The notes under the pieces: generated by a model
Seen by the model: the letters and a program-made list of their open reading frames with translations, nothing else
Told to the model about the DNA's origin: nothing
The model's database searches: none
Shown: positions 31,070 to 41,826 of the stretch, piece by piece
Layout of the letters: every line of letters begins with the position of its first letter
Numbering within the stretch: the first letter of the stretch is position 1
Made by a program: the position numbers and the translations under genes
DNA from: Phycisphaerae bacterium
GTDB taxonomy: Bacteria; Planctomycetota; Phycisphaerae; UBA1845; Fen-1342
Assembly (NCBI GenBank): GCA_022072445.1
Contig: JAJVHV010000005.1
Coordinates: 124,001-188,000 of the forward strand
Direction: 5' to 3'
DNA: 64,000 nt

Positions 31070-31954
31070 CTACAACCGCCGATGGAGCTGCTTCCGCGCC
31101 GCCTCGACCGTGTTTCTCAGCAGCATCGCCACCGTCATCGGGCCAACGCCGCCAGGGACCGGCGTGATCGCCGACGCCAGCGGAGCAACCTCGGTGAAGT
31201 CGACATCGCCGACGGTGCGCCGCACGTCGGATCCCCCGGCGTCGCGCTCGACGACGGAGTTGATGCCGACGTCGACGACGACGGCGCCGGCCTTGACGTG
31301 CCGCGCCGTGATGGTCCGCGGGCGGCCGACGGCGACGACGAGGATGTCCGCCTCGCGCGTGTGCGAACACAAGTCGCGCGTCGCGGCGTGACACGCGGTG
31401 ACGGTGGCCTGGTTCTCCAGCAGGAACATCGTGATCGGCTTGCCGACGATGCGGCCCTGGCCGACGACCACGGCGTGCGCCCCGGTCAACGCCGCTCCGC
31501 TTCGCAGCAGCAGCTCGTTGACCGCCAGCGCCGTGCACGGGGCGATGATCGGCTGGCCGTAGAAAAGCAGGCCGATGTTCGCCGGGTTGACGCCCTCCAC
31601 GTCCTTGTAGGGGTCGATGCGATACTGGGCCGCGGCCGGTTCGATCCCGGGCGGCAGCGGCAGGTGCAGCATGATGCCGGTGACGTCAGGCGCGGCGTTC
31701 AGCCGGTCGATCTCGTCGCGAAGCCGGGCTTCGCTGATGTCGTGCGGCAGCTCGATCAGCTCATACGCGATGCCGACGTTCTCGCACTGCTTGCGCTGCG
31801 AGCGGGCATAGAGCTGGCCGGCCTGGTCGCTGCCCGCCAGAATGGCACACAGCCGGATCGGGCCGTGCGCGGCGCGGTGCGCCGCGACGTTGCGGGCGAC
31901 CTCGGCCCGCACTTCCGCCGCCAACGCGCTGCCGTCGAGAATCCGAGCGCTCAC
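31070..31954 (-). CDS. folD: Methylenetetrahydrofolate dehydrogenase / methenyl-THF cyclohydrolase
   Basis: 294 residues. GTG 31954 overlaps the lpxI stop as GTGA, which fixes the start despite a longer open frame. The catalytic Lys lies in YARSQRKQCENVGI, the Asp in DVEGVNPANIG, and the nucleotide site in VVVGQGRIVGKPITM; the family end signature is PVPGGVGPMTVAML. The conserved Gln of the usual VQLPLP motif is His here (IMLHLPLPPGI), a noteworthy active-site change. It interconverts one-carbon folates in the cytosol. Coupled to lpxI, apparently by operon position only. Confidence 0.92.
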   Translation of the reverse strand: MSARILDGSALAAEVRAEVARNVAAHRAAHGPIRLCAILAGSDQAGQLYARSQRKQCENVGIAYELIELPHDISEARLRDEIDRLNAAPDVTGIMLHLPLPPGIEPAAAQYRIDPYKDVEGVNPANIGLLFYGQPIIAPCTALAVNELLLRSGAALTGAHAVVVGQGRIVGKPITMFLLENQATVTACHAATRDLCSHTREADILVVAVGRPRTITARHVKAGAVVVDVGINSVVERDAGGSDVRRTVGDVDFTEVAPLASAITPVPGGVGPMTVAMLLRNTVEAARKQLHRRL

Positions 31955-32844
31955 GGTGCGGCCGCGTCCTTTCGGGCCAGTACGGCGACTCCGTAACGGT
32001 CGGCCAGCGCGATCGTTTTCTCGCGTTCCAGAATGAGCGTCCGTCCGGCCTCGACTGCCAGGCAGGCGGCCCGCTGCCGGTGCAGATTCTCGATCGTCAG
32101 CGGTCCGACGGTCGGAACGTCGAAACGCATGTCCTGCTTGGGCTTGGCCAGCTTCACCAGCGTCCAGCCGCCAGCGCGGCACAACTGTCCGCTGCGCTCG
32201 ATGAGCGCGTCGGTGCCTTCGATCGCCTCGACGGCGATGATCTCGCGCTCCTTGACCGCCAGGGCCTGCCCGATGTCGAGGGCCGCGATCTGCCGCGCCA
32301 GCGGCCAGGCGAACGCCACGTCGTCCAGCACCGCACGCGACGGCTGCGTCCGGCCGAGCACGCCTTCAGCCGCGAGCGCTTCGGGGCAATAAGAGGTCGA
32401 GTCGATCAAGGTCAGTCCCTTGCGGCCGAGTTCGTCCGCGATGGCGCCCAGCAACGAGTCGTTCCGCCGATCGCGCATATGAAAGTACCACAGGCGGATG
32501 CTCGTCAAATCGGGCGCGTAGGTCAGCCACTGGAGCCAGCGCGGACCGGCGAACATCTTCGCCTTCCGCACGCGCCCGGCCATGATCACCTCGCGGCAGC
32601 CGGCCCGGCGGAGCTTGCGAATCCAGCTTCCGACACGCGCCACGCCCACCCACGTGAAGCGGTCGGCCAGCGCGTGCAGATCGGGCTCCGCGCTGCCGCG
32701 CAGCGCCAGCACGCAGACCCGACGGCCCGCAACCCGCGCTCCGCGCGCCACCAGCCGCGGAAACTCGCCCGCTCCGGCGATCAGGCCGAGCGGCGCTCCG
32801 GCGGCCGACGGCATTTCTGCCAGCGACGATGCGGCTGCTTCCAT
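31951..32844 (-). CDS. lpxI: UDP-2,3-diacylglucosamine pyrophosphatase LpxI
   Basis: 297 residues from ATG 32844; upstream frame is not conserved. The LpxI signatures are GLIAGAGEFPRLVARGA, IMAGRVRKAKMF, STSYCPEALAAEGVLG, and KLAKPKQDMRFDVPTVG with the catalytic Asp region. It hydrolyses UDP-diacylglucosamine to lipid X in lipid A synthesis, replacing LpxH. This implies an LPS-bearing outer membrane. It is followed by folD with a 4-bp overlap and preceded, 76 bp away, by the anti-sigma/pilin-like gene. Confidence 0.92.
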   Translation of the reverse strand: MEAAASSLAEMPSAAGAPLGLIAGAGEFPRLVARGARVAGRRVCVLALRGSAEPDLHALADRFTWVGVARVGSWIRKLRRAGCREVIMAGRVRKAKMFAGPRWLQWLTYAPDLTSIRLWYFHMRDRRNDSLLGAIADELGRKGLTLIDSTSYCPEALAAEGVLGRTQPSRAVLDDVAFAWPLARQIAALDIGQALAVKEREIIAVEAIEGTDALIERSGQLCRAGGWTLVKLAKPKQDMRFDVPTVGPLTIENLHRQRAACLAVEAGRTLILEREKTIALADRYGVAVLARKDAAAP

Positions 32845-32920
32845 GCGATCAGTTTGGCGGCGAACCGTGCTGGCGTCCACAGCCGGATCCGCGCCGCGCG
32901 CCGCCAGGTACGCCGGAGAA

Positions 32921-33907
32921 CTACTTGATGAGGTGAGAATCCGTCGCCGATCGCGGACCTTCCGTGCCGTGGTACTCACGCACGCCGCTCAGCGTCCAGA
33001 TATTGTCGCCACCGACGCCACAATCGGGAGTCGTCGACCAGATCACGCGCCCGCCGAGCGTGAGGATGTTCTGGCCAGCCCCGCCATGGGCACGCGAGTT
33101 GGCCGCCGCCCCGCTGCGCAGCGTGAGGAAGCGGCCGTCGTCGAACAGTGGGTTGTCGTCCGACATGATCGGCTGCGCTGGGTCGCTGCGCGGCGACGGA
33201 CGGACGCCCGCCATGTTCTGGTAACCGTAGCTCACGTTGCGCGACTCGGCGAAATCGTGGCGTGCGCGAATGTCGGTGATGGCCATCGGCGCGTCCCAGC
33301 GCGACGGGCACACGAACCGCGACGGGTCGCGCACGAGTCCTTCACGCAGAAGCGGGTAAACATGCCGCCGGTTGGGCACGACGCGCGCCGCGGGCGCGGC
33401 GCCGGCCTGCCAGGTGGCAGTCGGGTTCCAGCCGACGAACGGCAGGCTGTCGTTGAACTGGGCCGCATACGCCGCCAGACCCTGGCCGAGCTGCGCGAGG
33501 TTCGCCGAGCAGCCCGCCCGCTGGCCGCGCTCGCGCATCCGCAAAACACTCGGGACGCCGATGCCCACGAACAGCACGATCATCGCCGCAACCGCCAGCA
33601 CGTCGCGCAGACTGCGGACGCGCACCACCATCCCCGACGGCAGCTCGCTGTCGGCCGCCCGCACCAGACGCAGCGGCGCGGTCCGCACGCGGGCACGAAT
33701 ACCAGCTTCCAGGTCGGCCGGCGGCGCCGCGTCGTCGCGCAGCATGCCCAACGCCGAGAAAACCGACGCCAGCGCCTCCGCTTCGCGCGCCAACGCCGGA
33801 TCGCCGGCGACGCGCGCCTTCAGCTCGGCACGCTGCGAATCGGAGATCGGACCGAGGTACAGGTCGAGCAGCTCGGGTGCAGATTCGGATGGGTCACGCT
33901 CAGACAT
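32921..33907 (-). CDS. Anti-sigma-factor-like membrane protein fused to a DUF1559/pilin-like ectodomain
   Basis: 328 residues. Residues 1-90 look like an anti-sigma cytoplasmic region (LLDLYLGPISDSQRAEL and PALAREAEALASVF, without zinc ligands). One membrane helix at about 100-122 (DVLAVAAMIVLFVGIGVP) is followed by an ectodomain that starts CSANLAQLGQGLAAYAAQFN. The ectodomain contains FVCPSRWD and ends with GGAGQNILTLGGRVIW, the layout of planctomycete pilin-like DUF1559 proteins. The ECF sigma gene lies 58 bp upstream on the same strand, so it probably restrains that sigma factor. The fusion would couple an outside, pilin-like sensor to sigma release (inference). Confidence 0.7.
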   Translation of the reverse strand: MSERDPSESAPELLDLYLGPISDSQRAELKARVAGDPALAREAEALASVFSALGMLRDDAAPPADLEAGIRARVRTAPLRLVRAADSELPSGMVVRVRSLRDVLAVAAMIVLFVGIGVPSVLRMRERGQRAGCSANLAQLGQGLAAYAAQFNDSLPFVGWNPTATWQAGAAPAARVVPNRRHVYPLLREGLVRDPSRFVCPSRWDAPMAITDIRARHDFAESRNVSYGYQNMAGVRPSPRSDPAQPIMSDDNPLFDDGRFLTLRSGAAANSRAHGGAGQNILTLGGRVIWSTTPDCGVGGDNIWTLSGVREYHGTEGPRSATDSHLIK

Positions 33908-33965
33908 GTCTATCGGCCGCGGATCCGGCCGCCTCGTTGCCAGCGGGTTGCTCCCGTATTCGATC

Positions 33966-34586
33966 TCATGGTGAGCCCGATGCGTCGGCCGACTGCGGAT
34001 CGCGCGCCACGCTGCGCCACAGGTTTCCGAAATGCGTCACGGCCGAGTGCAGCCGCGACTTCACCGTCCCGACCGGAATGCCGAGGATTTCGGCGATGTC
34101 GGCGTACGGCAACTGCTGGTAATAGCCGAGAATCAGAATCATCCGCAAATGCTCGGGCATACGCGCGATCAACGCACGCACGCGCTGCTTGTCGTCGTTC
34201 GCGTCCGACCGCTGCTCCAGGTCGTCCACCGCAGCCTCGACCGCGTCGGCCAGGCTCAGCTCCGAATCTCGCCCGCCGCCCGGAGCGTCCAGAGAACGCT
34301 CCTGGCGACGGACGCGGGAACGGAGGAGGTCGCGCGCCTTATTGGCCGCGATGGTGTAAAGCCACGGCTTCAACGGCCGTGCCAGGTCGAACGAGTCGGC
34401 CGCGACGTGAATCTGCAGGAACGTCTCCTGTACCAGGTCTTCGGCGAGAGCGGCATCGCCGACAAACCGGTACAGGAATCCGTACAGATCCCGGGCGTAC
34501 CGATCGACGAGAGCGTCGAAACTCGCTGCGTCGCCTTGCAGGTAGGCTCGCAACAGCTCCCGATCGCCTCGCTCGTGCACTGCCAT
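33966..34586 (-). CDS. RNA polymerase sigma factor, ECF (sigma-70 family)
   Basis: 206 residues from ATG 34586. Region 2 is clear (FDALVDRYARDLYGFLYRF, EDLVQETFLQIH, KPWLYTIAANKARDLL), as is region 4 (MPEHLRMILILGYYQQL followed by YADIAEILGIPVGTVKSRL). A longer acidic linker separates them. It directs transcription from specific promoters and is likely held by the membrane protein encoded next in the operon. It is divergent from the sigma-54 activator gene. Confidence 0.93.
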   Translation of the reverse strand: MAVHERGDRELLRAYLQGDAASFDALVDRYARDLYGFLYRFVGDAALAEDLVQETFLQIHVAADSFDLARPLKPWLYTIAANKARDLLRSRVRRQERSLDAPGGGRDSELSLADAVEAAVDDLEQRSDANDDKQRVRALIARMPEHLRMILILGYYQQLPYADIAEILGIPVGTVKSRLHSAVTHFGNLWRSVARDPQSADASGSP

Positions 34587-34802
34587 GGTTCTGTACGCTC
34601 ATCCCCGCGATGAGTTCGCGGATTGCCCGACGAGATTCTTGCAGCCCGGCGGCAGCATGGATTGAATACGGGAGTCGCGGCAGCCGGGTCGTTTGAATGG
34701 GCGCAGTCCGGAATACCCTTCAATCGGCGGAGGACGGACTGGCACGCGGCACCGCGAGTTCATAAGCTGTAAGTATATTCTCGATAAGGAATAACGGCGA
34801 GC

Positions 34803-36509
<1,707 letters not shown>

Positions 36510-36591: not shown

Positions 36592-39500
36592 TCATCGAAA
36601 ATCCCGCGAGCGATTCCCAAGCCGCTCCGGCACGCTGGCGGTCGAACTTCGCTCACCTCGTGCGGCATCCTCCAGACAGGCCGACAGATCGCGCAGCCGC
36701 GTCGCCATCACGTGAATCACCTCGCCCGTCCGCTGAACGACACCTTCCGCGATCAACGCCACGCAGCCGCGCGCCGCGCGCCGGTCGCGATCCCAAACCT
36801 GCGGCTTGACGATCAGGTTCGCCACGCAGGTCTCGTCCTCCAGCGTCATGAACACGATCCCCTTGGCCGTTCCCGGCCGCTGCCGCACCAGCACCAGCCC
36901 CGCGACCGCGACCCGCGCGCCGTTTCTCATCTGGGCCAGCTCTGCGTTGCGCACTACGCGCATCCGTGCATCCCGCGAGCGGGCGGGACGCCCGCTCTCC
37001 CCTGTGCGGGCGGGACGCCCGCACTCCCCTTCGTGGCTTCGTGGCTTCGTGGCTTCGTGGCTGTTTTCCAGCTCCGCACGCACCAGCTCGATCGGATGCG
37101 CATTGAGCGACAGACCCACCGCGTCGTAATCCATCACCACGGTTTCATCCAGCGGCGTCGGCGGCAGCGTCACCGGCGTCTCATCCGCGGCGTCGCGATC
37201 CGGTTCGACGTCCGCAAACAGCGAGGGCGTCCCGCTCTCGTCGCGATAGAGCGAATCGTCGCGGTCGAGCGATAAAATCTCCCACAGCGCCTCGCGCCGG
37301 CCCAGTCCGAGCGAGCGGAACGCGTCCGCCGCCGCCAGCCGCAACAATGTTTCACGTGAAACGGCGTGGCGTGCGAGCTGGCGCAGTGAAGAGAAGGGAC
37401 GAAGGGACGGAGGGACGGAGGGACGGAGTTGCGGGATTGAGGGATCAGGGGATCGAGGGATTGAGGGACGGAGGGCCTGTCGTGCCGCGATGAGACCTTG
37501 CAGCTTTTCCGCGCTCAATCCGCGGACCATGCGAAAGCCCAAGCGCAGCGCGGGACCCGATTGAGAATTCAGGTTTTCGGCTCGGCCGATTTCTGCGCTG
37601 CGAAGACTTCCTTCGTCACGAACCCCTCCCTGACGGTCGGGGCTCGGCTGGGCGGCTCCTCGAACCCCTCCCTGACGGTCGGGGCTCGGCTGGGCGCGTT
37701 CTTTCCCCTCCGTCGCTTCGTCGCTTCGTCGCTCCGTCGCTGTGTTCCCCTCCGTCGCTTCGTCCTTCGTGCCTTCGTGCCTCCGTGCCTCCGTGCCTTC
37801 CTCCAACGTGCAATCCCACGCGCTGTACAGCACATCCACCGGCCGCACCTCGACGCCGTGGGCGATGGCGTCGCGCACGAGCTGGGCCGGCGCGTAGAAG
37901 CCCATCGGCTGCGAGTTCAGAATCGCCGCGCAGTACGCCGCCGGGTAATAGCATTTCAGCCACGCCGACGCGTACACCAGCAGTGCGAACGAGGCCGCGT
38001 GGCTTTCGGGGAAGCCGTATTCGCCGAAGCCCTGAATCTGCCGGTAAATCTGCTCGGCGAACTGTTTGCTGTAGCCGCGGTCCAGCATGCCGCGGACGAG
38101 CTTGAGCTTGAATGTCTCGATCGAGCCGCTGCGGCGCCAGGCGGCCATGGCGCGGCGAAGCTGGTCGGCCTCGCCGGCGGTGAAGCCGGCCGCGACGACC
38201 GCCAGGCGCATCACCTGCTCCTGAAACAGCGGCACGCCGAGCGTCTTGTGCAGCACTTTCCTGACGGCCTCGCTGGGGTAGGTGACGGGTTCGAGTCCGT
38301 CGCGGCGGCGGAGGAAGGGGTGCACCATGCCGCCCTGGATCGGGCCGGGCCGGACGATGGCGACCTCGATGACCAGGTCGTAGAAATTCCGCGGCCGCAG
38401 TCGCGGGAGCATGGACATCTGGGCGCGGGACTCGATCTGGAAGACGCCGACGGTGTCGGCGCGGCAGATCATGTCGTAGACGCGCGGATCTTCCTGCGGC
38501 AGGTCCGCGAGGGACGAAGGGACAGAGGGACGGAGGGACGAAGAATCATGCGTGAGGGCGCGTACAACATCCTGCACTACGGAGGGCTGCTCCGCGTCTG
38601 AAGACTCCGGATGAGTCCTTGAAGCACACGATCGGTCTCCGCCATCAGTTCCTGCACACCGTCGCCGTTCGTCATCATTCGCAGCTCGACCGCTATCGTC
38701 AATTGCGTCTCCAGCTCCGCCAGTGATCCTCGCGCGATGATCAGAAATCGCAGGTAGTCCGTCCGCGACTGGCGCGCGTTGCCCTCGGCGATGTTGCTTG
38801 CAATTGACACCGCTGCTCGTCGCATCTGAGAGGTCAGACCGAAACGCTCTTCCGGCGGCATGTGCTGCGTCTGCTGATACACCCGCTTCGCCAGAGCCAC
38901 TGCCTTTTGCCAGGCCACCAGGTTGCGAAACGTTTTCTTGCGATCGTCGCCGCTCATTTCTTGGTCCCTTTATCTCTTGGTCTCGTCTTCGATCTTCTGT
39001 CCCTTTGTTTCTTTGTCCCTTTGTCCCTTCGTCCCTTCGTCCCTGCATCAACTCAAAGCACTTCCTCAGCGCCGTCAGCATCCCCAACGCCAGACAATCC
39101 ACCTTGAGAATCCCCAGCGCGTCGATGTCGTCTTTGTCCCATTCGATGAATGTGCGGCCGGGCATGGCGCCGTTCTCGAGCGGGACGATTTCGCACAGCG
39201 GCGACTCGGTGATGACGAACCCGCCGACGTGCTGCGACAGGTGCCGCGGGAAGCCGAGGAGCTGTTTGACGAGAGAAGCAAGGGACGCAGGGACGGAGGG
39301 ATTAGAAGCAAGGGACGCAGGGACGGAGGGATTAGAAGCAAGGGACGCAGGGACGGAGGGATTAGAAGCAAGGGACGCAGGGACGGAGGGATTAGAAGCA
39401 AGGGACGCAGGGACGGAGGGACAGAGGGACGAAGGATTAGACGGATTGTCTTTTTCTTCCCGTTCCTCCGTCCCTCCGTCCCTTCGTCCCTCCGTCCCTC

Positions 39501-41826
39501 CGTCTCCTTGTCCCTCCGTCCCTCCGTCCCTTCGTCCCTCGTCGTACCACCACCCGTCATACCAGTCCACCGACTTCGCCAGCACGTCGAGCTTGTCCAG
39601 CGACAGCCCCAGCACCTTGCCCACGTCGCGGATCGCCGAACGCGGGCGGTAGCTGATCACCTCGGCGGTGATGGCGGCACGCTCGCGCCCGTACTTCTCG
39701 TAGATGTACTGAAACACCTCCTCGCGGCGCTCGTGCTCGAAGTCGACGTCGATGTCCGGCGGCTCGCCGCGCTCCTTGCTGATGAAGCGCTCGAAGAGCA
39801 GGTCGTGCTTGGTGGGGTCGACAGCGGTGATGCCGAGGTAATAGCAGACGGCGGAGTTGGCGGCCGACCCGCGGCCCTGGCAGAGGATGCCGCGGGCCCG
39901 CGCGAAGCGGCAGATGTCCCAGACGGTGAGGAAGTAGTGTTCGAAGCGGAGCTCGCGGATGAGCGCGAGTTCGGCGGAAAGCAGCCACGAAGCCACGGAG
40001 CCACGGAGCCACGAAGGGAGCGGAGACGGGCCTGCTATATGGCTGGCGGCGGTGGTGGTGTCGATGTCCCTTTCGGCGGCAGCCGCTCCAGGCTGCGGAT
40101 CAACCCCTGAAGGACACGATCCGTTTCGGCCAGCAGGTCCAGAAACGACGATGGTGCCTTGATGAACTGAAGGCGTTGGGCCAGGAGCACCTGGGTTTGC
40201 AACTCCATGAGTGAGCCGCGGGCGTTCCTCAGGAAGCGAATATAGTCCGGGAGGCTGTGGCGTCCGTGACCCTCCGCAATATTCGACGGAATCGACACGG
40301 CTGCGCGACGCATCTGGATCGTCAAGCCGAATTTCTCCGAATCCGGCATCTGAGTGGTAATCTGATAAACCTGCTCCGCAAGAGACATCGCTCTCTGCCA
40401 GGCAACCAGGTCGCGAAACGTCTTGATATCCGCGTTCTCGCTGTTGGACGTGCTCATCGTCGCAATCTCCTGATGGTAGATCGTCTCCACACCGCGTGGC
40501 TCCGTGGCTTTGCTCTTCGTGGCTTCGTGGCTCCGTGGCTCCGTGGCTTTGCTCTTCGTGGCTTCGTGGCTCCGTGGCTCCGTGGCTTTGCTCTTCGTGG
40601 CTTCGTGGCTCCGTGGCTCCGTGGCTTTGCTCTTCGTGGCTTCGTGGCTCCGTGGCTTCGTGCCTGGCTTTTCCCACCGCCGCCCACACCAGCTCCTCCA
40701 GATAATCCATCGCCGACCGCCCCGGCGGCACCAGCTCGTGCGGGTAGTCGTAACGCAGCTCGTCGAGCGTGAAGGTGCACTGCCCGGCGATCTTCAGCGT
40801 GTTGGCCAGCGCTTCGCGGCCGATCCGCGACAGCTCAGCGTCCGCGTGCCGCGTGTAACGCCGGGCGATCTCGTCCAGCGGGCGCAGGTGCCGCTCGGCG
40901 TTGGCGAAGAGGCGCGAGCCGGCCTCGGCGAGCGTGCATTTCTCGCGGATACAGGTAAGCACGTCCTGGAGCTGGCGGCGCTGCGGGTCGTGGTAATGCA
41001 CGTGATTGGTGGCGACCAGCGGAATGCCCGTCTCACGTGAGAGGTCGGCCAAGCGGCGGAGGCGCGTCGCGTCGGGCTCGTCAAACGACAGCGCGGCGGC
41101 GAGGTAGAGGCGGTGGTTGAAAGAGCGACGAAGATGAGGGCTCGCTACTCGCTCACCCTCAACTTCGTCGCTCTCGGTGACAATCGCCACCAACCCCTCA
41201 GCGAACTCCGCCACGTCGGACAGGTGGAGAATGCAGTCGCCCTTCTTCGCCCGCCGCCGGCCGCGGGTGATCAGCCGCGACAGGCGGCCGTAGGCGGCGC
41301 GATCGGTGGCGAGCAGGACGAGCGGCGGTCCGTCGAGCGGCGTGATCTCGGCGCCGATGATGAGGCGTAGGGACGAAGGGACGGAGGGACGGGGGGACGC
41401 GGGTTGCTGGCGCGGGGATGCATGGACCGAGCAACTCAGGGACGAAGGTAGGATCTCCTCGCGCGCAGGGGCGTTGTTGTGTTCCCCTTCGTCCCTTCGT
41501 CCCTGTGTCCCTCCGTCCCTCTTCCCGAGTTCCTTCCACGCCACATGCGCCCGCACGACGCCCGCCAGCGAGTTGCGGTCGGTGATCGCGATGGCGGCGT
41601 AGCCCAGTTCGGCGGCGCGTTCGATCAGCTCCTCCGGGTGCGAGGCGCCGCGGAGGAAGGAGAAGTTGGAGAGGCAGTGCAGCTCGGCGTACGGGAGAGA
41701 CTCAGGGGTGGAGGGATGGGCGGGCTCAGGGGTGGAGGGATTGGGCGATTGAGGGTTTGAGAGATGAGGGCCAGGGATTGAGGGATGAGGGTCTTTGGCG
41801 ACCGAGGGATCGAGGGGGCGCATCAT
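36592..41826 (-). CDS. dnaE2: Error-prone DNA polymerase III alpha subunit DnaE2 (ImuC) with eight in-frame repeat insertions
   Basis: A single 1744-codon frame; family members are usually a little over 1000 residues. The PHP domain opens with YAELHCLSNFSFLRGAS and TDRNSLAG. The polymerase catalytic Asp residues lie in PDIDVDFEHERREEV and LKVDCLALGML, and FQIESRAQMSMLPRLRP, SHAASFALLVYASAW and a C-terminal OB domain follow. Removing the N-terminal extension and seven internal low-complexity segments (about 740 codons) leaves roughly 1000 residues that read as normal DnaE2. DnaE2 works with ImuA/ImuB in damage-induced mutagenic synthesis; those genes are not in this window. Two inserts hold nested four-helix-bundle genes. 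The frame being open throughout argues against simple decay. Confidence 0.9.
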   Translation of the reverse strand: MMRPLDPSVAKDPHPSIPGPHLSNPQSPNPSTPEPAHPSTPESLPYAELHCLSNFSFLRGASHPEELIERAAELGYAAIAITDRNSLAGVVRAHVAWKELGKRDGGTQGRRDEGEHNNAPAREEILPSSLSCSVHASPRQQPASPRPSVPSSLRLIIGAEITPLDGPPLVLLATDRAAYGRLSRLITRGRRRAKKGDCILHLSDVAEFAEGLVAIVTESDEVEGERVASPHLRRSFNHRLYLAAALSFDEPDATRLRRLADLSRETGIPLVATNHVHYHDPQRRQLQDVLTCIREKCTLAEAGSRLFANAERHLRPLDEIARRYTRHADAELSRIGREALANTLKIAGQCTFTLDELRYDYPHELVPPGRSAMDYLEELVWAAVGKARHEATEPRSHEEQSHGATEPRSHEEQSHGATEPRSHEEQSHGATEPRSHEEQSHGATRCGDDLPSGDCDDEHVQQRERGYQDVSRPGCLAESDVSCGAGLSDYHSDAGFGEIRLDDPDASRSRVDSVEYCGGSRTPQPPGLYSLPEERPRLTHGVANPGAPGPTPSVHQGTIVVSGPAGRNGSCPSGVDPQPGAAAAERDIDTTTAASHIAGPSPLPSWLRGSVASWLLSAELALIRELRFEHYFLTVWDICRFARARGILCQGRGSAANSAVCYYLGITAVDPTKHDLLFERFISKERGEPPDIDVDFEHERREEVFQYIYEKYGRERAAITAEVISYRPRSAIRDVGKVLGLSLDKLDVLAKSVDWYDGWWYDEGRRDGGTEGQGDGGTEGRRDGGTEEREEKDNPSNPSSLCPSVPASLASNPSVPASLASNPSVPASLASNPSVPASLASNPSVPASLASLVKQLLGFPRHLSQHVGGFVITESPLCEIVPLENGAMPGRTFIEWDKDDIDALGILKVDCLALGMLTALRKCFELMQGRRDEGTKGQRNKGTEDRRRDQEIKGPRNERRRSQENVSQPGGLAKGSGSGEAGVSADAAHAAGRAFRSDLSDATSSGVNCKQHRRGQRAPVADGLPAISDHRARITGGAGDAIDDSGRAANDDERRRCAGTDGGDRSCASRTHPESSDAEQPSVVQDVVRALTHDSSSLRPSVPSSLADLPQEDPRVYDMICRADTVGVFQIESRAQMSMLPRLRPRNFYDLVIEVAIVRPGPIQGGMVHPFLRRRDGLEPVTYPSEAVRKVLHKTLGVPLFQEQVMRLAVVAAGFTAGEADQLRRAMAAWRRSGSIETFKLKLVRGMLDRGYSKQFAEQIYRQIQGFGEYGFPESHAASFALLVYASAWLKCYYPAAYCAAILNSQPMGFYAPAQLVRDAIAHGVEVRPVDVLYSAWDCTLEEGTEARRHEGTKDEATEGNTATERRSDEATEGKERAQPSPDRQGGVRGAAQPSPDRQGGVRDEGSLRSAEIGRAENLNSQSGPALRLGFRMVRGLSAEKLQGLIAARQALRPSIPRSPDPSIPQLRPSVPPSLRPFSSLRQLARHAVSRETLLRLAAADAFRSLGLGRREALWEILSLDRDDSLYRDESGTPSLFADVEPDRDAADETPVTLPPTPLDETVVMDYDAVGLSLNAHPIELVRAELENSHEATKPRSHEGECGRPARTGESGRPARSRDARMRVVRNAELAQMRNGARVAVAGLVLVRQRPGTAKGIVFMTLEDETCVANLIVKPQVWDRDRRAARGCVALIAEGVVQRTGEVIHVMATRLRDLSACLEDAARGERSSTASVPERLGNRSRDFR
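36977..37070. repeat. Insert in dnaE2: two GCGGGCG-hairpins plus a GCCACGAA octamer array
   Basis: Two palindromes, GAGCGGGCG-GGA-CGCCCGCTC (36977-36997) and GTGCGGGCG-GGA-CGCCCGCAC (37004-37024), differ by a compensatory base-pair change, which supports a selected hairpin. They adjoin about four copies of the octamer GCCACGAA (37030-37062, minus-strand reading). The whole is an in-frame insert before the OB domain of DnaE2, read as HEATKPRSHEG and GRPARTGESGRPARS. Confidence 0.8.
37391..37482. repeat. Insert in dnaE2: pyrimidine-rich CGTCCCTC array
   Basis: On the coding strand this is a (C/T)CGTCCCT octamer array read as RPSIPRSPDPSIPQLRP. It sits between DnaE2 segments LQGLIAARQA and SSLRQLARHAVS. 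It has no fhb gene. Confidence 0.75.
37560..37803. repeat. Insert in dnaE2: octamer array plus two 35-bp GACGGTCGGGGCTCGGC repeats
   Basis: It contains purine-rich octamers (AGGCACGG, AGCGACGA types) and two near-identical copies (37621-37652 and 37661-37696) of a unit with core CCCTCCCTGACGGTCGGGGC. A third copy lies outside the gene at 41941-41975. The insert is read in frame as EARRHEGTKDEATEG and twice as QPSPDRQGGVR. It separates DnaE2 segments YSAWDCTLEE and PALRLGFRMVRGLS. Confidence 0.8.
38507..39043 (-). mobile_element. IVS-like insert 1 in dnaE2: inverted octamer arrays flanking a four-helix-bundle gene
   Basis: About 537 bp inserted between DnaE2 segments LTALRKCFELM and DLPQEDPRVYDM. 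On the coding strand the 5' edge is a GGGACGAA/GGGACAAA octamer array (about 38965-39043) and the 3' edge is its inverted counterpart, CGTCCCTC/TGTCCCTT (about 38507-38545). A complete four-helix-bundle gene lies between them. The edges can pair, so the RNA could form a stem enclosing the gene. There is no transposase, reverse transcriptase or intein motif. The mobile nature is inferred from the second, related insert at 39981-40672. Confidence 0.65.
38577..38957 (-). CDS. Four-helix-bundle protein (S23/IVS family), nested in dnaE2
   Basis: 126 residues, same strand as dnaE2 but another frame. The family signature is complete: FRNLVAWQKAVALAKRVY, RFGLTSQMRRAAVSI, SNIAEGNARQS, DYLRFLIIARGSLAELETQ. 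The octamer array directly upstream supplies an AAAGGGA ribosome-binding site nine bases before ATG 38957. Relatives are encoded by intervening sequences of 23S rRNA in several bacteria, and by small free-standing genes; some resemble the Avd protein of diversity-generating retroelements. The biochemical role is unknown, with RNA or nucleic-acid binding suspected. About 58% identical by eye to the 40035-40457 protein. Confidence 0.85.
   Translation of the reverse strand: MSGDDRKKTFRNLVAWQKAVALAKRVYQQTQHMPPEERFGLTSQMRRAAVSIASNIAEGNARQSRTDYLRFLIIARGSLAELETQLTIAVELRMMTNGDGVQELMAETDRVLQGLIRSLQTRSSPP
39270..39543. repeat. Insert in dnaE2: inverted octamer arrays without cargo, including five 30-bp tandem repeats
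   Basis: Five copies of a 30-bp unit (plus-strand AGAAGCAAGGGACGCAGGGA and on, 39271-39420) are read as SNPSVPASLA. They face a GGGACGGA-type array in the opposite orientation (39460-39543), read as RRDGGTEGQGDGGTEGRRD. Only about 30 bp separate the two arms, so this resembles a long hairpin without a four-helix-bundle gene. It splits DnaE2 between YDGWWYDEG and LVKQLLGFPRHLSQHVGGF. Confidence 0.8.
40035..40457 (-). CDS. Four-helix-bundle protein (S23/IVS family), nested in dnaE2
   Basis: 140 residues from ATG 40457, chosen for AGGAG nine bases upstream (ATG 40490 would add 11 residues). The signature is complete: FRDLVAWQRAMSLAEQVY, KFGLTIQMRRAAVSI, SNIAEGHGRHS, DYIRFLRNARGSLMELQTQ. The protein ends with a proline tail (PPPPPAI) that runs into the 3' octamer arm. 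It lies in a different frame from dnaE2 on the same strand. It is a diverged paralog of the 38577-38957 protein, so the two inserts probably come from separate or old insertions rather than a recent local duplication. Confidence 0.85.
   Translation of the reverse strand: MSTSNSENADIKTFRDLVAWQRAMSLAEQVYQITTQMPDSEKFGLTIQMRRAAVSIPSNIAEGHGRHSLPDYIRFLRNARGSLMELQTQVLLAQRLQFIKAPSSFLDLLAETDRVLQGLIRSLERLPPKGTSTPPPPPAI
40504..40660. repeat. Four tandem 39-bp repeats in the 5' arm of insert 2
   Basis: The unit (plus strand GTGGCTTTGCTCTTCGTGGC and on) is 39 bp, exactly 13 codons, read by dnaE2 as ATEPRSHEEQSHG four times. It is itself built from GCCACGRA octamers. The copies look identical, suggesting recent slippage or unequal exchange. 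Confidence 0.85.
41367..41525. repeat. Insert in dnaE2 PHP domain: inverted octamer arrays around a short unique core
   Basis: A GGGACGGA/GGGACGAA array (41466-41525) and its inverted counterpart (41367-41400) enclose about 65 bp of unique sequence without a gene. The insert is read in frame as KRDGGTQGRRDEGEHNN and RPSVPSSL. It separates VRAHVAWKELG and LRLIIGAEITPLDG of the PHP domain. Confidence 0.8.
41692..41826. repeat. N-terminal repeat extension of dnaE2
   Basis: The first about 44 codons are a pyrimidine-rich array (CATCCCTC, AATCCCTC, CACCCCTG types) read as NPQSPNPSTPEPAHPSTPES. Normal homology begins at PYAELHCLSNFSF. The true start of translation could therefore lie within the array; ATG 41826 is the only clear ATG. 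Confidence 0.65.

Follow-up and report, generated by a model that had tools for sequence, protein, structure and literature searches.

In the window, by which is meant the whole 64,000-nucleotide stretch of DNA analysed, an ECF sigma factor gene is followed by a gene whose product joins an anti-sigma domain, a single membrane helix and a pilin-derived ectodomain. The two genes probably constitute a self-driving circuit of an ECF sigma factor and a membrane anti-sigma factor. Its sensor probably arose from a DUF1559-type pseudopilin, and part of the pilus machinery would thereby have been turned into a cell-envelope sensor. The features of the locus are as follows.

33966-34586, minus strand: ECF sigma factor, 206 aa (Pfam Sigma70_r2, Sigma70_r4_2; TIGR02937)
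32921-33907, minus strand: fusion gene, 328 aa, with anti-sigma domain, membrane helix and pilin-derived ectodomain
33677-33877, minus strand: class I-type anti-sigma domain without zinc motif, residues 11-77 (NF052375, hhalign, RskA profile match)
33545-33610, minus strand: membrane helix, aligned in register with pilin helix 1 and lacking a prepilin cleavage site, residues 100-121
33602-33604, minus strand: D102, at the position of pilin Glu5 (alignment)
32924-33544, minus strand: ectodomain derived from pilin/DUF1559, C133 and C200 conserved, residues 122-328 (PF07596, invariant columns)
33050-33100, minus strand: NSxxHxGxGQNxLxxxG motif, residues 270-286 (alignments)
34594-34617, minus strand: ECF-type promoter of the sigma gene by exact match, with -35 GAAC at 34614-34617, a 16-base spacer and -10 CGTA at 34594-34597
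34803-36509, plus strand: GAF-AAA-Fis sigma-54 activator, divergent neighbour (domain scan)
31951-32979 (open frame), minus strand: lpxI, lipid A precursor hydrolase, behind the fusion gene (Pfam)

The sigma and fusion genes lie on the minus strand and are separated by 58 bases. The sigma gene was taken to start at the ATG at 34586, with an alternative GTG two codons downstream. Its product matched Sigma70_r2 (E 9.9e-20) and Sigma70_r4_2 (E 1.3e-15) in Pfam and TIGR02937 (E 4.3e-30) in NCBIfam; it is a short protein with both regions 2 and 4, which makes it an ECF sigma factor, and it is otherwise unremarkable. The initial annotation had read the second gene as an anti-sigma-like part, one helix and a DUF1559-like ectodomain with an ECF sigma partner, and this architecture was borne out by profiles, homologues, synteny and the sigma gene's own promoter. 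Both NLAQLGQGLAAYAAQFN and NILTLGGRVIW are present in the translation of the fusion gene.

The sigma gene lies directly upstream in all 67 non-duplicate fusion loci, none of which has a prepilin motif. Among the plain relatives, 26 have the prepilin motif and none of these has the sigma gene, and one truncated plain frame has neither (94 frames in total). Because the loci had been collected for their resemblance to the query, and related genomes were counted separately, this clean split is to be read as a pattern and not as a probability. Duplicates (L020 and L040-L046) were left out, as were L096 from the tree and the tables and L007 from the tree alone. Two loci, L028 with a frame broken after the sigma gene and L072 with a long diverged N-terminus, stood with the plain proteins at first and were regrouped with the fusions after the tree had been seen, because both have a sigma gene upstream. 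With this grouping, the fusions make up one side of a branch of the tree with a support of 30 (67 rows) or 84 (63 class rows), which is compatible with a single origin as well as with several. The break in L028 consists of a stop and a frame change in the anti-sigma part and is either an assembly error or a lost anti-sigma factor.

A match at E ≤ 1e-20 was obtained in 54 of 61 genomes (the own genome and relatives), mostly with one copy in each. Of the 150 genomes sampled from the class, 144 matched at E ≤ 1e-15, some of them by plain pilins. The same fusion, which the initial annotation had suggested looking for elsewhere, is present in at least 105 of these 150 genomes, counted from 124 listed genomes of which 105 have a best match reaching the anti-sigma part (starting at model position 50 or lower). 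At least 25 of 199 genomes matched in the phylum sample, where up to ten candidates were scored per genome, and at least three of these (G258, G301, and G344) come from beyond the class and start in the anti-sigma part, with a sigma gene adjoining all three. The own genome contains 43 further partial matches, nearly all to the helix region, and no relative was found in the viral contigs searched.

The dyad GAAC-N16/17-CGTA was found upstream of 53 of the 67 orthologous sigma genes, the window included (shuffles: mean 0.86, largest 5), and lies mostly 6-13 bases from the sigma gene start. The 53 include L039, L087, L089, and L090, and the exact promoter is missing at 14 of the 67 loci. Its recurrence ahead of the sigma gene in 53 loci suggests that the circuit probably drives itself. 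In family f17 (L059, L063, L066, and L067), the sigma gene has no exact promoter and similar-looking secreted proteins follow the fusion gene; the circuit may be rewired there.

The ECF genes of the own genome were surveyed for the same dyad. Matches to the ECF region-4 family occurred at 48 places, from which 30 loci were taken; a sigma frame could be recognised in 24, and the other 6 were left out. The dyad was present at 2 of the 24, namely the window locus and L281, and a pilin ectodomain at the window locus only. At L281, GAAC-N16-CGTA starts 66 bases before the open frame of a second ECF sigma factor, which is followed by a zinc-type anti-sigma factor. Since L281 carries the same dyad as the window sigma gene, cross-talk is possible, at least with this second ECF sigma factor.

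Among the 31 loci L009-L039, at least 13 have the sigma-54 activator beside the pair; flanks of 1500 bases were available for most of the 31, and L020 and L038 belong to the same contig. On the other side, the Pfam match of lpxI begins at residue 64, for which reason 32844 is probably its true start. The genes lpxI and folD were considered as operon partners and rejected; they lie behind the pair in this window only, the flanks of the remaining loci having neither. With lpxI, an outer-membrane gene stands behind the fusion gene in an arrangement specific to this lineage. No conserved downstream gene was found in the loci examined and no pilin or pilus gene beside the pair, so synteny names no partner protein. 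Elsewhere, the genome carries pilus/T2SS platform genes and M50 proteases. At 36592-41826 (minus strand), a 1744-aa open frame was read as a putative DNA polymerase III alpha type protein; it holds long repetitive insertions, among them ATEPRSHEEQSHG and NPSVPASLAS, which give the impression of a polymerase gene invaded by low-complexity repeats.

Candidate targets beyond the pair were sought with the same dyad. The exact dyad precedes glmS in 10 of 30 relatives (shuffling gave 0.23 and never more than 2), and 9 of the 10 exact sites are located at -72 to -114. By matrix score, 15 of 28 glmS loci were above the 95% null and 9 of 28 above the 99% null, with 2 of the 30 loci left out for want of a usable start. 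The glmS gene of the own genome (L225) has no exact site and a single weak one, with a score of 9.3 at -212. For an HtrA-type protease, a site was found at 3 of 30 loci, 2 in a fixed window and L240 added by the matrix scan, in which 13 of the 30 loci were without a usable start; these sites are only suggestive of HtrA as a target. A stricter form of the dyad gave 111 sites in 7 genomes vs 63 for a reversed control, so that most genome-wide matches are chance. A broad regulon was rejected, as the only likely targets to recur behind the 111 sites were the sigma gene itself, in 5 of 7 genomes, and glmS, in 2 of the 7. Other repeats behind sites were set aside as apparent frame artefacts (L119/L161), as a further ECF sigma factor (L152), or as two sulfatases of one genome (L177 and L183). 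The two sulfatase genes belong to the relative G011, and each lies behind an exact promoter dyad.

The membrane helix of the fusion aligns in the register of pilin helix 1. P119 falls on pilin Pro22, where proline is found in 67 of 67 fusions, and position 5 is acidic in 65 of 67 despite the lost cleavage motif. Position 4 is mostly Arg and not Ile, and the -1 residue, which is Gly or Ala in the plain relatives, is bulky in most fusions. The prepilin peptidase site (G-1 F1 ... E5) occurs in 0 of 67 fusions vs 26 of 27 other relatives. As this site is absent, the fusion protein is best described as derived from a pilin and is itself not classed as one. The acid at position 5 and the helix register support pilin-type contacts, although an acid at a membrane border is cheap and is no proof of them.

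In the ectodomain, DUF1559 (PF07596) matched residues 124-168 of the window protein (E 4.4e-4) with 20.8 bits, short of the gathering score of 23.3 bits. The same profile matched 17 of 30 orthologues at E ≤ 0.01 (best 3e-7). By these matches the window protein is related to DUF1559, yet it stands outside formal membership of the family. In a PDB search, a whole-length profile of 30 rows (A1) matched anti-sigma factors over its N-terminus and pilins over its helix, all weakly; the helix matches, to the pilin PilA and geopilins, had E values of 0.03-0.3. Invariant in the 30 sequences are C133, C200, N270, S271, H274, G278, and G286. The last five belong to the NSxxHxGxGQNxLxxxG motif, which we take to correspond to the H-X9-DG motif of prepilin-type proteins in planctomycetes (TIGR04294). 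In the fusions the C-terminal H-motif is conserved in the form H-x10-(D/G)-G, one residue longer than H-X9-DG, and TIGR04294 gave no match at E ≤ 1 in the window protein, L038, or L039.

This conservation bears on two other explanations of the outer part. The first is that the protein is an ordinary membrane anti-sigma factor whose pilin-derived outer part serves as a mere scaffold or protease substrate for envelope stress, as in RseA and RsiW, and has otherwise nothing to do with pili. The site upstream of glmS and of the HtrA-type protease (3 loci) resembles general envelope stress, M50 proteases exist in the genome, and the pair has no pilus gene linked to it. The conservation seen goes beyond what a mere anchor or spacer requires: the helix retains its pilin register, Pro22 and the position-5 acid, and the ectodomain retains both cysteines and its H-motif. 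We consider this explanation somewhat unlikely. The second, that the ectodomain senses an outside ligand such as a polysaccharide independently of pilins, is improbable. DUF1559 is described as a solute binding protein family in the available part of one source (PMC2754498), and the near-invariant ectodomain residues could make a binding site; on the other hand, the pilin-like part was the only candidate ligand-binding domain found in the Pfam and NCBIfam scans, and the conserved membrane helix is left unexplained.

In its N-terminal part, the window protein matched the NCBIfam 'anti-sigma factor' model NF052375 at E 6.2e-10 (residues 17-138) and the 'putative anti-sigmaE' model PRK13920 at E 1.1e-6, with both scores under the NCBI naming cut-offs. 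As a single protein it gave no anti-sigma match in a Pfam scan and no match in a PDB sequence search. When 30 orthologues were scanned individually, NF052375 matched 30 (best E 4.4e-15) and PRK13920 matched 27. For a profile built from the N-terminal regions of 26 orthologues in this set, the top PDB match was RskA (4nqw; E 7e-4), followed by protein A and affibodies, which are short helical look-alikes; RsiW was also brought up by the PDB profile searches. The domain was compared by hhalign with eight proteins encoded behind other ECF genes of the same genome, which gave E values of 9e-6, 7.7e-5, and 8.4e-4 for L270 (an anti-sigma factor), L282, and L281, respectively, and 0.018-0.34 for the remaining five (unrelated and shuffled controls: 0.0069-0.77). 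The three parts recur in L087, a protein from beyond the class that carries an Hx3Cx2C zinc motif (HLESCTEC), and this zinc-type fusion aligns to the anti-sigma domain of the window family with an hhalign E of 1.6e-6. The zinc motif is absent from the window protein and is optional for class I (ASDI) anti-sigma factors, about 44% of which are without it according to the available part of the survey in PMC7406223. By sequence, the N-terminal domain is related to known anti-sigma domains and is assigned to ASDI.

The initial annotation had named the lack of an anti-sigma fold in residues 1-90 as a refutation, and a structure model of these residues neither refutes nor proves the three-helix bundle of class I anti-sigma factors there. 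The model has four helices in the expected order (13-18, 23-35, 37-58, and 63-76) at modest confidence (mean pLDDT 58.7), but its lone Foldseek match, to the anti-sigma factor RslA, was non-significant (E 9.2, Z 2.6). The full-length fusion model, built with three sequences, was poor (mean pLDDT 36.4). Weak structure models and the missing zinc motif are what could be said for reading the N-terminal part as a cytoplasmic tail on an unusual pilin whose gene simply neighbours the sigma gene and is among its targets, a reading that is very improbable given NF052375 in 30 of 30 orthologues, the zinc-type relative L087, RskA and RsiW in the profile searches, a prepilin site in 0 of 67 loci and sigma pairing in 67 of 67. 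With NF052375 in all 30 orthologues, PF07596 in 17 of them and a sigma gene at every fusion locus examined, the fusion is beyond chance.

For the preferred reading, a pilin-derived sensor on a membrane anti-sigma factor, we infer the following mechanism. The N-terminal ~75 residues would hold the ECF sigma factor in the cytoplasm, and the single helix, in pilin register and with no prepilin-peptidase site, would anchor the protein with the pilin fold outside. A signal sensed through the ectodomain or the helix would release the sigma factor by regulated proteolysis, possibly with the M50 proteases of the genome, or by a change of shape. From GAAC-N16/17-CGTA, the freed sigma factor would transcribe the operon that encodes it and, in some members of the lineage, glmS as well, which serves amino-sugar supply for the envelope. 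Tentatively, and as a rather unlikely extension, the protein could act as a pilin decoy. Its uncleavable helix 1, which retains the position-5 acid and Pro22 of pilins, would pack against true DUF1559 pilins or the assembly platform, so that the condition of the pilin pool or of the pilus machine would set whether the protein keeps hold of the sigma factor or lets it go; once free, the sigma factor would adjust both its own level and, through glmS, the supply of envelope precursors.

Sensing in the PilS-PilA system of Pseudomonas was reportedly treated by Kilmury and Burrows in 2016. The idea that the pilin pool or pilus machine is read by helix contact has a precedent in PilS-PilA, a regulator reading the pilin pool in the inner membrane according to the available part of PMC6058289. 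PilS is a histidine kinase whereas the fusion is an anti-sigma factor, and a pilin contact of the fusion is only proposed. As in the class I anti-sigma factors RskA, RsiW, and RseA, a putative helical sigma-holding domain at the N-terminus, one membrane helix and an ectodomain are encoded directly behind an ECF sigma gene; unlike in these, the ectodomain and the membrane helix derive from a pilin-like protein. Class I anti-sigma factors bear varied extra domains that are conserved by group, and no pilin-derived sensor is named among them, in the available part of PMC7406223. With the planctomycete DUF1559/SBP_bac_10 prepilin-type proteins, the fusion shares helix 1 with Pro22 and the position-5 acid, the following Cys, a second Cys and the C-terminal H-motif. 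It differs from them in having no prepilin-peptidase site and ~95 extra N-terminal residues, and in being mostly single-copy and always beside a sigma gene in the loci examined. DUF1559/SBP_bac_10 genes number 41 or more per Planctomycetales genome (PMC8567305), and Planctopirus limnophila has 68 DUF1559 paralogues, two of them essential (PMC10632474), as given in the available parts of these sources. No description of an anti-sigma/pilin fusion was found in the openly licensed literature of PMC, a search outside which the main ECF classification papers lie; within the literature searched, the pilin-derived sensor is a new addition to the known membrane anti-sigma factors, and no claim is made that it is unpublished.

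The DUF1559 pilin-like proteins are among the largest planctomycete protein families. The fusion is probably a pilin turned signalling receptor, in which the cleavage site was lost and the position-5 acid retained, and the class-wide sigma/anti-sigma pair would offer a genetic handle on the envelope state that DUF1559 proteins report. If the uncleavable helix does act as a decoy for true pilins, the pair would be a dedicated, class-wide regulatory readout for this large planctomycete family.
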